DNA of 64,000 nucleotides from Solibacillus sp. FSL R7-0668. GTDB taxonomy: Bacteria; Bacillota; Bacilli; Bacillales_A; Planococcaceae. A program made the position numbers and the translations under genes. Shown here piece by piece: positions 2,829 through 33,508 of this stretch (positions are counted from its first letter, which is position 1; each line of letters opens with the position of its first letter). Below the pieces are notes generated by a model. The model did no database searches and was not told the origin of the DNA. It worked only from the letters and a program-made list of their open reading frames with translations. The stretch is from contig NZ_JBBOUU010000001.1 of assembly GCF_038006205.1 (NCBI RefSeq), positions 1,676,001 to 1,740,000 on the forward strand. The letters are read 5' to 3'.

Positions 2829-3791
2829 TTAAAATTTAAATGTATCATCAGTAATCGGTGCTACTTTTGCGATAGCATAGGTAGCGCCTTTTTGACTGAA
2901 AAAATCATAGGTAGAGCCTGTATTCGAAATCCCGTTCATGACAACCGGATTTACTTCCTCCTCAGGGAACATCGTCTCAAAGCCTAAGTTCATCAGTGCT
3001 TTATTGGCATTGTAGCGCACGTATTTTTTTACTTCTGGGGAAAGACCTGTTTCGGCATAAAGGTCTTCAGTGTACTTCATTTCATTTTGGTAAAGATCCA
3101 GTAAATATTCATAGCCCCATAGTGTTAACTCTTGCTGTTTTTCTGCAGAAAACGTTTTGAAAATGTTTTGTGCGAAAAAGCCAACTGCTACACCGTGAAT
3201 TGATTCGTCGCGTAATATAAGTGAAATCACTTCAGCAGAGTTACGTAACGTTCCTTGCCCGCCTAAGTATAACGGGTAGAAAAAGCCAGAGTAAAATAGG
3301 AAACTTTCGAGCATTACGGAAGCAAACATCGCTTTCCATAAGCTTTCTGAATCATCTTCTTTGATCGCTTTATAAACATCCCCAATTCGGTTTGCTTTAT
3401 ATTGAAGAAACTCATTTTTTTGTACCCACTCGAAAATTTCATCGATTTCCGTGTTCGTACAAAGTGTGGTGAAAATGTACGAATACGATTTGGCATGGAT
3501 GGCTTCGAATGCGCCAAATACAGTTAGAACGGCCTTTTCTTGAAGGTCAGGTGTGAATTTGGCAATTTCGTTCATGCCAATATTTGTTTGAACGGTATCG
3601 AGTAAAGTTAAACCACCAAACACCTTCTTGTACGTATCCTGATGTTCGAATTCCTTCCATTGCTTGACATCCTTGCTGACTGCAATTTCTTCTGGGAACC
3701 AAATTTGTTTCCATTGCTGATCCCAAAAAATGCGTGCCAACTCACTTGTAGGCTTGTTCCAGTTGACGGCTTGGTAAGTTAAATTTGACAT
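2829..3791 (-). CDS. nrdF: Class Ib ribonucleotide reductase small subunit NrdF
   Basis: A 320-residue NrdF, the dimetal-tyrosyl radical subunit that starts radical transfer to NrdE so that ribonucleoside diphosphates are reduced. Metal-ligand motifs are visible: LLDTVQTN near residue 65, FEAIHAKSYS near 98 (E, H and the radical-type Y) and DESIHG near 197. The start chosen is ATG 3791, which has GAGGAG 9 nt upstream; the GTG three codons earlier has no room for a ribosome site. It overlaps the nrdE stop by 13 nt, a sign of translational coupling. It is the last gene of nrdHIEF under the cobalamin riboswitch, followed by a convergent terminator. Identity is secure. Confidence 0.96.
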   Translation of the reverse strand: MSNLTYQAVNWNKPTSELARIFWDQQWKQIWFPEEIAVSKDVKQWKEFEHQDTYKKVFGGLTLLDTVQTNIGMNEIAKFTPDLQEKAVLTVFGAFEAIHAKSYSYIFTTLCTNTEIDEIFEWVQKNEFLQYKANRIGDVYKAIKEDDSESLWKAMFASVMLESFLFYSGFFYPLYLGGQGTLRNSAEVISLILRDESIHGVAVGFFAQNIFKTFSAEKQQELTLWGYEYLLDLYQNEMKYTEDLYAETGLSPEVKKYVRYNANKALMNLGFETMFPEEEVNPVVMNGISNTGSTYDFFSQKGATYAIAKVAPITDDTFKF

Positions 3792-4141
3792 GCGACACAC
3801 TCCTCAATTGTCAGTAAACGTTGACGAACATAATACACTGATTTTATACCCTTCATCCAAGCATAAATATACACCTTTGCGAGCTGCTCAGTGTTCCATT
3901 GATCGGTTACGTATAACGTCATCGAGATACCTTGGTCGACATGCTGCTGCGCGGCTGCGTATAAATCAATCAGCTCATACGGATTGACGTCATAGGCCTC
4001 TGTATACAGTTCCTTGTTGTCATTCGTTAAAAATGGCATCGGATAAATCGTTCGTGAGTCTGCATAGTCACGTACCTCAACGCGTTCTGTAATCGGTGCA
4101 AGTGAAGCAGTGCAAGATCTTATATATGAAATACTACCAGT
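3779..4141 (-). CDS. nrdE: NrdE, exon 2 (C-terminal 120 residues)
   Basis: This is the 3' exon of nrdE. Read from 4141 it begins TGSISYIRSCTASLAP, which continues the RLAIAP ending of exon 1, as expected for the APTGSISY core of class I large subunits. It ends in ECVACQI, the C-terminal CxxC tail that is re-reduced by NrdH. No ribosome-binding site precedes it and the ATG at 4039 is internal, so it should only be translated after the intervening group I intron (4142-4467) is spliced out. Spliced NrdE is about 698 residues, the normal length for class Ib. It overlaps the nrdF start by 13 nt. Confidence 0.9.
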   Translation of the reverse strand, partial: TGSISYIRSCTASLAPITERVEVRDYADSRTIYPMPFLTNDNKELYTEAYDVNPYELIDLYAAAQQHVDQGISMTLYVTDQWNTEQLAKVYIYAWMKGIKSVYYVRQRLLTIEECVACQI

Positions 4142-4467
4142 CCTTGATACCCTCAGTTTCCTGATATTTTGTAGGGAGTAGACTATACAATATAGGTAAT
4201 GGCTTTTTACCTATCAAGTATTATAGTCGTTGAACCTTCACCATTTGATAGGTGCTTGGCTGCTGATTACCGATTCGATAAGCACTTAGGACATAGGATT
4301 TCAACTATGCTTTTTTTCACCTTATGCTATCCAAAAAATTTTTTCTGCTTTCGCCACATTCACGCATATCGTTTCCGATTACGTTGTAGTTTTTTTGGCT
4401 TTACGGCTTCCCAGCAATTTAACTTGTTTTGACACTGTTTTACAACAATGAAAGCCCTAGTTTGTTA
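4142..4467 (-). ncRNA. Self-splicing group I intron in nrdE, 326 nt, no ORF
   Basis: On the minus strand the nrdE frame hits TAA right after the codon for P in RLAIAP and resumes 326 nt later. The insert has group I hallmarks. The last exon bases GCCU plus the first intron U can pair with an internal guide AGGGC, giving the U-G wobble at the 5' splice site (P1). A P-element-like run with GCUGGGAAGCC pairs GCUG with CAGC of a Q-like AAUCAGCAGCCAAGC (P4). An R element GGUUCAACGACUAUA pairs GACUAUA with UAUAGUC of the S element (P7). The intron ends in G at 4142. Joining GCGCCT to ACTGGTAGT restores A-P-T-G-S. There is no homing endonuclease ORF, so this is a minimal, probably non-mobile intron. 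Boundaries rest on frame restoration and known group I rules. Confidence 0.92.
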
Positions 4468-6201
4468 AGGCGCAATGGCTAGTCGGTAGCTATGGAACAA
4501 GCCATATTTTTGTACATCCTCTTTTAACGCCTGCCACATTTTATTTGTAATGATTGGCGTTGACCCTAATGCACCTAAAACGATTGCATCAAGCTCGACT
4601 GTTTCTTTATTCATATATTTTTCAAAGTAAGCGCCTGAAGCATATTCGCTATCCTCATAGCGATAGAATGTTTCCTTCTTCTCTTTTGCGATTTCCATCG
4701 AAGCTTTTACCGAATAATAATTCAATGCTTCCATAAAGGCATCAACAAATGCAATGGATTCCTTTGAACCGTAGCGAATCCCGCTGCTTACTAAGTGCCC
4801 GTGCAAATTCATCACACCAAGTCCAACCGAGTGCATTACCTTATTGGCCTTTGAAACGGAAGGGACGTTGATGATATCAGTCATCGTCGATACATTCGTT
4901 AACAAGCGCATCGCTGTTTGCACTAATTGTTCAAAGCTTTGTACCTTTGTTGCCTCGTGAATATCAATGGAGCCGAGATTACAGGAAACATCTAGACCAT
5001 ATTCATTTGGCTGGTTTTGATCGGTAATGACGCTCGTTTGCTGATACTGAAGAATTTCCGTGCATAAATTTGACATTTTCACGCGCCCGATATTTTTCAA
5101 TGCATGATGATTATTAACATTATCATCCAGTATTTCGAAAGGATAGCCGGATTCAAATTGGGCTTTTTTCACTTCGGTATATAATTTTCGTGCATTAATA
5201 CGCTTGAGCTTGCGAATATTTGGATTATCCAATAATTCGTAATACATTTCAGACAACGAAATTTCAGACATGCGCTTCCCGTATTCTTTGTAAATATCGT
5301 AGGAACTAAATAGTACGATGTCTTTATCCCGGCGCATTAGTTCAAAGAAAATATCGGGTATAATAATGCCGGTAGAAAGGGTCGCTAAACGAATTTTGTC
5401 GTCGGCATTTGGCTTTTTCGATGAGATAAAGCTTTCAATATCCCCATGGAAAATATTCAAATAAACAACGCCTGAGCCATTACGCTGCCCAAGCTGATTC
5501 GAATAACTGAAGGAGTTTTCTAATAATTTGGCGACGGGCATAACCCCGCTAGCACGATTTAATATCCCTTTAATCGGATCACCGAGTGGACGTAAATCCG
5601 TTAAATTCACTCCAACACCGCCACCTAATCGAGATAGCTCCAAGCAGTAGCCGATATTTTCAGCGATTGAGTTCATCGTGTCATCCATCGTTAATTTAAA
5701 GCAGGAAACGAGCTCACCACGTGCTTTTTTCCCACTGTTTAGGGCAGTAGGGGTAGCAGGCTGGTAGGCAGTCATAATAGCTTCAATCGCCTGTTCGGCT
5801 AATGCTTCGTCACCTTGTGCAAGGTAGAGCGCAATAATAACAATGCGGTCTTCATATTTTTCTAAAATTTCTTTGCCATCACGGCTTTTCATCGCATAGC
5901 TATCATAAAATTTAGATGCACTCATAAATGAAGGGAAGCGGAATTTATAGGCATACGCCTTTTTGTACATACGCTTTATGAAATCCATAGCGTACAGCTC
6001 GATAAATTCCTTTTCATAGTAGCCTTCATCTACTAGGTAGCGTACTTTTTCTTCAATATCAATAAAATAGCGGAGACGGACATTGATCTCCTCTAAAAAG
6101 TAACGGCGTGTCGCGTCCTTATCCTTTTGTAAATCGATTTCACCTGTCGCGCGGTAGCGGTTAAGGATATCGTTATTAAGCGTTAAATAGTGTTTCATCA
6201 T
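4468..6201 (-). CDS. nrdE: Class Ib ribonucleotide reductase large subunit NrdE, exon 1
   Basis: Exon 1 codes for about 578 residues of the catalytic subunit that reduces NDPs to dNDPs. Active-site motifs are present: ELVSCFKL near residue 170 (first redox Cys), SNLCTE near 380 (thiyl radical Cys with Asn and Glu) and CNLGSID near 408 (second redox Cys). The reading frame ends with an intron-borne TAA, so an unspliced message would give a truncated, inactive protein lacking the C-terminal barrel strands and the CxxC tail. The start is ATG 6201 or 6198 (GAGG a few nt upstream); TTG at 6204 is too close to it. The A of the nrdI stop TGA is the A of the nrdE ATG, indicating coupling. It most resembles the enterobacterial/lactococcal NrdE type. 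Confidence 0.93.
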
Positions 6202-6563
6202 CAAGCCTCATTCCAAATGGAGTTATAAAATTGCTTTATTTGCTCATAATCGGCAGTCGTTCCTCGTAAATCTAGCTTTGCGATTAGTGGGAGCTCATAA
6301 TAATTTGCTAATAGATCACCGGCACGGCCAAACATCGAATGACCAAAATTGCGATTGCCACTGACAATAATGCCTTTACAAAGCATGTGGTGCTGCTGCA
6401 TATAGTCTTCTACGACAGCGGGAATCGAGCCTAGCCCATCTGTATAGGTGAATAGTAAAAATGGCTTCGTAATGGATGTAGCTTGTTCAATGGGAGTAGA
6501 CGGTAAACCAAGTTTTCCAATCACACTCTGAACATTGCCCGTGCGCGTAGCATAAACAATCAT
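6201..6563 (-). CDS. nrdI: NrdI flavodoxin-like activator of NrdF
   Basis: A 120-residue flavodoxin-like protein that binds FMN and supplies superoxide/peroxide to assemble the Mn(III)2-tyrosyl cofactor of NrdF. It starts MIVYATRTGNVQ, the FMN phosphate loop, and carries GNRNFGHSMF further on, typical of NrdI. The start is ATG 6563, overlapping the nrdH stop as ATGA, with no separate Shine-Dalgarno, so it is translationally coupled. Gene order H-I-E-F is the standard class Ib arrangement. Confidence 0.93.
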   Translation of the reverse strand: MIVYATRTGNVQSVIGKLGLPSTPIEQATSITKPFLLFTYTDGLGSIPAVVEDYMQQHHMLCKGIIVSGNRNFGHSMFGRAGDLLANYYELPLIAKLDLRGTTADYEQIKQFYNSIWNEA

Positions 6564-6784
6564 GCGCTGAATTCTGAAATACGATTCATAATGGAAGGAG
6601 TCTCCGCATACCATTCACTATCAATTTCCAGCACAGGAACCGATAAAAAACCTGCCTCCAAAATTGCTTGTTTTGCTGCTTCATTATGGTCGATGTTAAT
6701 GATCTCGACTTGTAAGTTTGCCGCATCCAATTCAGATTTTACCCATAAGCACTTTGGGCAGATTGTTTTTGTGTAAAGTTTCAT
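6560..6784 (-). CDS. nrdH: NrdH glutaredoxin-like redox protein
   Basis: A 74-residue glutaredoxin-fold electron donor with thioredoxin-like activity, reducing the C-terminal CxxC of NrdE. The active site is TICPKCLW near residues 7-14, and the C-terminal SVPVL with its cis-Pro loop is as expected. The open frame extends upstream into the leader, but the start is ATG 6784, preceded by GAGGG at 8-9 nt. It is the first gene after the cobalamin riboswitch and its terminator, so it is the direct target of that control. Confidence 0.92.
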   Translation of the reverse strand: MKLYTKTICPKCLWVKSELDAANLQVEIINIDHNEAAKQAILEAGFLSVPVLEIDSEWYAETPSIMNRISEFSA

Positions 6785-6870: not shown

Positions 6871-6934
6871 TGAAATGGAAACAAAAATAGAGCTTTCGTC
6901 TCCATTTCCTATTCCCCGAAGAAATGTACGTGAA

Positions 6935-7080
6935 TTTAGCGCGGCAGGTCTCCTGGCTTTGCGTCATCCGTCAGACACCTTCCCATGCATAAGCACAGTG
7001 GCAAACGTCTTCAGTCAGCATTTACAGTTGCGGGGACAGCGTTGGTTTTGCACCAAACTTCCCTATTAAACTACATTTAG
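6935..7080 (-). promoter_or_regulatory. Cobalamin riboswitch upstream of nrdHIEF
   Basis: The minus strand carries the cobalamin aptamer consensus in order: AATAGGGAAGTTTGGTGCAA, CCAACGCTGTCCCCGCAAC, TGTAAATGCTGAC, then the B12 box GCCACTGTGCTTATGCATGG, followed by GGAAGGTGTCTGACG, GATGACGCAAAGCCAGGAGA and CCTGCCG. The ligand is adenosylcobalamin or a related form. The downstream terminator (6838-6870) suggests transcription attenuation that turns the operon off when B12 is abundant. Using it to control a B12-independent ribonucleotide reductase is known from Streptomyces nrdABS; the logic here is by analogy. Confidence 0.95.
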
Positions 7081-7183
7081 TAGTACCGCGATAAATCAAC
7101 ACAATATCTAGTTATGAATATGAGTATAAGTGTTCGTATATAAAAAGTAAAGAGGAGATTTTAAAGTCGGACAACTGAAATGA

Positions 7184-33172: not shown

Positions 33173-33413
33173 ACGTGAAATAATGCTTTTCGTTGAGCAG
33201 AAAATGTTGAAAAATCAGTATATTTGCTAATTTTGTACTAGTCATTTGAGCTGGTATTGTTGTAAAAGTGAGAAATCACTGGTAGTATTAGTTATCGTAC
33301 AATAATAGTATTGGCGCGAACAATTCTGTGGATGGAAGATGCCAGAAGCGAATTGTGTAATTAAATAGTATTAAGCAACGATCGCTGTGGATCATACTAC
33401 AGGCGGGAGCAGT

Positions 33414-33474
33414 TTCTGGAGAGAGCGCATAGAGCGTCGCCGAAGGGTTCATAATCTCAGGCAAAAGGACAGAA
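33414..33474 (+). promoter_or_regulatory. Glycine riboswitch (single aptamer)
   Basis: The sequence shows the glycine aptamer core: TTCTGGAGAGAGC at the 5' side, CGCCGAAGG in the middle and CTCAGGCAAAAGGACAGAA at the 3' side, with P1 formed by TTCTG (33414-33418) and CAGAA (33470-33474). Only one full aptamer is visible; the upstream part (about 33310-33400) lacks a second core. A terminator follows at 33509-33548, then an amino acid permease gene, so glycine should control transcription of the permease. Confidence 0.9.
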
Positions 33475-33508
33475 GGGTAATGAGAGACGTTATTATTCTT
33501 ACGTATAC

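Follow-up and report, generated by a model that had tools for sequence, protein, structure and literature searches.

Group I introns in ribonucleotide reductase (RNR) genes have been described from both bacteria and phages. For example, a review (PMC3984707) covers Bacillus group I introns whose hosts are nrdE, nrdF and recA, and a second paper (PMC3653736) deals with split phage RNR genes, those of Staphylococcus phage Twort among them. The sequence-only reading of our locus had also noted that such introns occur in nrdE of Bacillus group bacteria and phages. Group I introns are described as preferring conserved sites (PMC2814812), and RNRdb reports more than 100 curated introns of this group from RNR genes (PMC2795772). 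The nrdE, nrdF and recA introns of the Bacillus cereus group and the nrdE intron of SPbeta are likewise group I introns, with bacterial or prophage RNR genes as their hosts. Our literature search found no paper pairing Solibacillus with a group I intron.

The window, i.e., the whole 64,000-nt stretch of DNA that we analyzed from Solibacillus sp. FSL R7-0668, carries on its minus strand a cobalamin riboswitch (6926 to 7105; RF00174, 114.4 bits, E 6.5e-28) followed by nrdH, nrdI, nrdE and nrdF. The open reading frames were named by reading, in the case of the nrdH-like glutaredoxin (MKLYTKTICPKC..., 6560 to 6784), or by reading and operon context, in the case of nrdI (6201 to 6614) and nrdF (2829 to 3791). 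The operon lies on a 4-Mb contig, which supports the chromosomal setting proposed earlier. A cobalamin riboswitch was also seen in loci L042, L043, L053, L054, L076, L077, L078 and L096, and elsewhere in the window there is a glycine riboswitch aptamer (33406 to 33482, 49.2 bits).

Within this operon, nrdE is split exactly between A-I-A-P and T-G-S by a 326-nt insert at 4142 to 4467. Exon 1 (4468 to 6204, with the first start of the open frame at 6204) matches PF02867, PF08343 and PF00317 and ends in GCGCCT at 4468, and exon 2 (3779 to 4141) begins with ACTGGTAGT at 4141, encoding T-G-S-I-S-Y. The Pfam profile PF02867 runs to position 388 in exon 1 and from 389 to 523 in exon 2, so no codon has been lost or gained at the junction. 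The insert opens with an in-frame TAA as its first codon and ends in G. Both the broken frame and the A-P-T-G-S frame restored by removing the insert had been proposed from the letters alone, and both were borne out, the former with exact coordinates and the latter also by unbroken relatives. An intein was considered and ruled out, since the insert opens with a stop, and no group II intron match was found in the insert at E <= 10.

We identify this insert as a group I intron, on the basis of a sub-threshold match to the Rfam group I model (RF00028), of helices P2 to P9, of covariation over 12 related sequences and of intron copies at the same place in 4 of 16 Solibacillus genomes. The core formed by P3, P4, P6, P7 and P8 is present, including the P3/P7 pseudoknot. 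P1 (4454 to 4471), as read from the sequence, pairs exon GCCU (4471-4468) and the first intron U with the guide AGGGC (4458-4454), with a U-G pair at the 5′ splice site, and both exon GCGCCT and guide CTAGGGC are identical across the four Solibacillus copies. Two-sided changes occur in 5 of 6 pairs of the P2 hairpin (4434 to 4449; 4449-4444 with 4439-4434), in 3 of 5 pairs of P3 (4215 to 4426; 4426-4422 with 4219-4215) and in 6 of 6 pairs of P8 (4214-4192), which lies inside the P7 span. The alignment also supplies P4 (4416-4411 with 4266-4261) and P5 (4407-4404 with 4272-4269), with peripheral hairpins between their strands (4261 to 4416), P6 with its extension and a short closing loop holding no open reading frame (ORF) (4235 to 4259), and P9 (4150 to 4176), whose inner hairpin is capped by GAAA. 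P7, the guanosine-binding helix (4181 to 4228; 4228-4223 with 4186-4181), is paired in all 12 sequences and hardly varies, and is therefore consistent with the structure but without covariation support of its own. The terminal guanosine at 4142 is a G in all four Solibacillus copies, and no P10 pairing of the 3′ exon with the guide is evident in the sequence. The P1 wobble, the P4 and P7 pairings and the terminal G had each been read beforehand, as had the lack of an ORF, and we find no sense-strand ORF of at least 60 amino acids inside the insert. To call the intron minimal is apt in this last respect, but not for its peripheral P5-side region of about 130 nt.

The RF00028 match reaches 40.3 bits (E 6.4e-9 when 511 nt were searched; E 1.3e-8 in the whole-genome search). 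A covariance-model search had been proposed as a check, and the match is present in the search of the whole genome, but the score falls under the gathering score of 50, and a gathering-threshold Rfam scan of the window did not return the insert among its matches. When the whole-genome search was run at E <= 1 on 14 control genomes, 8 also gave matches, which in 2 cases lay above the cut-off; weak RF00028 matches therefore mean little, and that of the nrdE insert is far stronger. Two weak matches lie elsewhere in the same genome (L004, E 0.0135; L005, E 0.161). The other three Solibacillus copies score 34.7-37.9 bits. The Twort nrdE region, both of whose introns are reportedly self-splicing, has no RF00028 match at E <= 1, so the model is not sensitive and a low score says little against the assignment.

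The predicted fold of 366 nt has a z score of -3.54, with 0 of 100 shuffles equally good. We aligned 12 sequences, namely the insert, the three other genus copies and 8 of 12 phage loci from our intron search (loci L114-L117, which matched the query only in part, were left out, and the G164 row lacks 3 nt at the 5′ end). RNAalifold predicted 71 pairs, of which 45 show compensating changes. The structure that we counted has 75 pairs, i.e., those of RNAalifold with five P3 pairs added by hand and one P7 pair removed; 98.1% of its 900 cells are paired, and two-sided changes are seen in 48 of the 75 pairs, across 12 rows that are not all independent (RNIID and Romulus are close, as are G159 and G156). 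None of 500 shuffles reached any of the five measures used; for slid structures the paired share is 34-40%.

The nearest described counterpart is the second nrdE intron of phage Twort (MT151386), which begins with TATATATTAGGGC and ends in G ahead of ACA. It interrupts the same AP|T codon boundary, shares the terminal G, has a similar guide (UAGGGC) and is 80% identical over 65 nt covering the P4-P5 side of the window's intron. In contrast, the Twort intron is 1087 nt long and contains a NUMOD4/HNH ORF, placed by reading in its P6 loop, whereas the Solibacillus intron is ORF-less, with a larger P5 side. This ORF and the different layout beyond P5 make the Twort intron a same-site cousin rather than simply the Solibacillus intron plus an ORF. 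A placement of the Twort ORF in the loop of a helix at intron nt 140-187 was dropped, since the P4 3′ strand precedes the ORF. Twort nrdE is also broken at about residue 233, as is the gene of two Solibacillus genomes (G160 and G163). The break in SPbetaL6 nrdE falls elsewhere than the intron of the window, at residue 374/375, and residue 375 is also broken in G160, L076 and L077 (both comparisons at tblastn resolution). Phage positions therefore recur in chromosomal genes.

Our search of phages with the intron returned 287 records at E <= 0.01, 82 of them spanning at least 80% of the query. For example, unannotated relatives separate the parts of a split DNA polymerase III alpha gene in Lactococcus phage AM1 and two lysin parts in Staphylococcus phage phiSA_BS2, and another is present in SEP1; all three have the same helices and 72-75% identity over 86-90% of the query, and differ from the window's intron in belonging to phage genomes, those of AM1 and phiSA_BS2 lying in or beside genes other than nrdE. 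Three other phage or viral-contig nrdE genes (L120, L121, L122) have no break at this site. A search of viral contigs for NrdE found a single locus, with no break at the site. Of two exact patterns run on viral contigs, one of 17 bases, taken from the 5′ part of the intron, hit two contigs, both rejected on inspection as chance matches outside nrdE, and the 3′-junction pattern hit none. Among plasmids, 28 records had partial intron matches and none covered 80% of the query. The Twort HNH endonuclease was found in 0 of 16 genus genomes, a count that shows little without a known positive genome.

Within Solibacillus, an intron at this codon boundary is present in 4 of 16 genomes (our own, G000, and G164, G159 and G156), with the other three copies 84-88% identical to the window's intron. 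The gene is unbroken in 8 of the 16, carries inserts elsewhere in two (G160 and G163), and is represented by only a distant relative in the remaining two (G157 and G162). The possibility that relatives carry the same sequence as coding DNA thus fails, since eight have unbroken nrdE lacking the intron and four have the intron in the same place. Among the intronless relatives is S. palustris, whose exon 1 protein is 95% identical to that of the window and whose nrdE groups with that of G150 at a branch length of 0.0.

Across the family, intron DNA gave some match in 111 of 261 genomes at E <= 0.001, and, among the matches listed (ordered by E), near-whole query was covered only in the same four Solibacillus genomes. 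Partial intron-core matches in family genomes (L022, L033, L010, L013; L011, L015, L019, L027, L035) adjoin flagellin or tape-measure-like genes or, in other genera, sit inside nrdJ (all gene names assigned by reading). A 340-amino-acid NrdE piece matched 63 of the 261 genomes at E <= 1e-60, with the gene looking interrupted in 10 of the 63: the six Solibacillus genomes named above and G060, G234, G240 and G244, these last four called from open-frame length or a split match alone; G257 (open frame 666) is uncertain and stands outside this count. None of 47 named loci has an insert at exactly this boundary, and 6 of the 47 have one elsewhere in nrdE. In L. yapensis (L042) and Niallia endozanthoxylica (L043) an insert sits within or behind the T-G codons, a few bases further downstream, with RF00028 scores of 84.1 and 99.3 bits, respectively. 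Other inserts are at residue 566 (L053, L054) and at residue 375 (L076, L077), and L078 is broken near 380, its exon 2 not found; of these five loci only L076 matches RF00028 at E <= 0.1. HNH and GIY-YIG ORFs are present in the inserts of L053 and L077. Downstream of nrdE, probably in nrdF, we also observed a group II intron match in G159 (L008 785-991) and group I matches in Niallia (L043 6948-7267), G163 (L095 321-589) and G160 (L100 322-638).

Taken as a self-splicing group I intron whose exons are joined to give intact NrdE, a reading that we hold with high confidence, the insert would work as follows. The guide AGGGC in the transcript would hold U(-1) of the 5′ exon in P1, a guanosine bound in P7 would attack after GCGCCU, and the freed exon would attack after the terminal G, joining the exons as A-I-A-P-T-G-S, with the TAA at the intron start expected to stop ribosomes ahead of the intron. 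Catalysis and splicing in vivo are here inferred rather than observed. Without splicing, exon 2 would be lost. Compared with its counterpart in intronless S. palustris, it has 39 synonymous and 4 non-synonymous changes in 121 codons, stop included, which argues that it is translated; judged by these changes, it is under purifying selection.

This gene is the sole class Ib nrdE found in this Solibacillus genome, and a group I fold that splices incompletely could act as a brake on class Ib RNR. The cobalamin riboswitch already heads the operon, perhaps turning class Ib off when cobalamin feeds NrdJ, and layered control is thus conceivable, but we saw no dedicated regulatory element and nrdE is unbroken in half of the genus genomes, so we consider a brake unlikely. 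Matches to PF02867 fall in two genes of the genome only, which are the RNR large-subunit genes found here, the second being class II nrdJ (G000:C1:2438600-2444200, L107), and no NRDD match, i.e., no class III enzyme, was found by a search that finds one in 6 of 14 control genomes. In comparison with an unbroken NrdJ from the genus, this nrdJ has three inserts, after residues 231, 447 and 619. RF00028 matches the first at 38.4 bits and the third at 48.9 and 31.0 bits; the second, of about 250 nt, has no match at E <= 1. Endonuclease-like ORFs occur in the first (DUF559 match) and the third (HNH and zf-FCS). Over our own genome and loci L124-L138, 8 of 16 Solibacillus genomes have an interrupted nrdJ, with inserts at about the same three sites in differing combinations. 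For G153, G159 and G160 the insert is deduced from a short open frame and from the absence of the part after residue 619, which lay outside the stretch examined. Inserts in both nrdE and nrdJ are found in 5 of 16 (G000, G156, G159, G160 and G163). Because only two RNR large-subunit genes, with one and three inserts, and no class III enzyme were found, all ribonucleotide reduction could pass through RNA splicing, and guanosine-dependent splicing could then be a common gate on dNTP supply, an idea to which we give only a slender chance.

Identity along each intron-bearing nrdE was measured against the closest intronless relatives of that gene, with 405 overlapping windows of sixty bases. In each of the six comparisons that involve G159 or G156, all of the eight windows of lowest identity start 49-99 bases upstream of the site, the minimum being 0.55-0.63 and the means 0.88-0.95. 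When the nrdE under study is set against G150 and G151, its least similar windows have their starts at -24 to +11 (except for one of the eight lowest against G150, at -164), with a minimum of 0.63-0.67 where the mean is 0.86. Of three intronless control pairs, two lack such a dip, save one G153-G155 window at -44, and the third (G158-G150) has a dip near -150; G164 compared with G150 has a dip near -149 and none at the site. We read the dips at the site as flank exchange accompanying homing in two lineages, G159 and G156 probably sharing one event, although local exchange from other causes could leave the same trace. As to the donor of the flanks, the last 60 bases of G159 exon 1 resemble those of the intron carriers G164 (0.78) and G000 (0.77) little more than those of intronless G158 and G150 (0.75). 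The intron has no endonuclease of its own and would most likely have spread between nrdE alleles through recombination where the site was cut or broken, perhaps helped by an endonuclease in trans. That it instead came with a whole phage nrdE that replaced the resident allele might be suggested by the 287 phage records and by the shared Twort site, but, except in the stretch beside the site, the exons are on average 0.86-0.95 identical to those of the nearest intronless relatives in the genus, neither exact pattern revealed a viral contig with the intron, and no break was seen at the site in one viral-contig and two phage nrdE genes, all of which makes replacement very improbable. Very improbable too is a dead insertion, with nrdE a pseudogene and class II NrdJ doing the work, as a second RNR gene and a frame that meets a stop at once would allow, given the 39 to 4 ratio in exon 2, a ribozyme core conserved in four genomes and an nrdJ that is itself split by three inserts.

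The group I intron described here, very probably self-splicing, is of a phage type and lies, outside the Bacillus cereus group, in a chromosomal RNR gene that is essential. Introns of this kind are known from phages and Bacillus; the setting of this one is unusually intron-loaded, both genes of the kind in this genome being interrupted. Automated pipelines would probably annotate such genes as broken. The insertion position is also used in a phage, and there is a trace of lateral movement even though the intron has no endonuclease. With nrdE and nrdJ interrupted in varied combinations, Solibacillus offers a natural set of genomes for the question of whether splicing limits dNTP supply.
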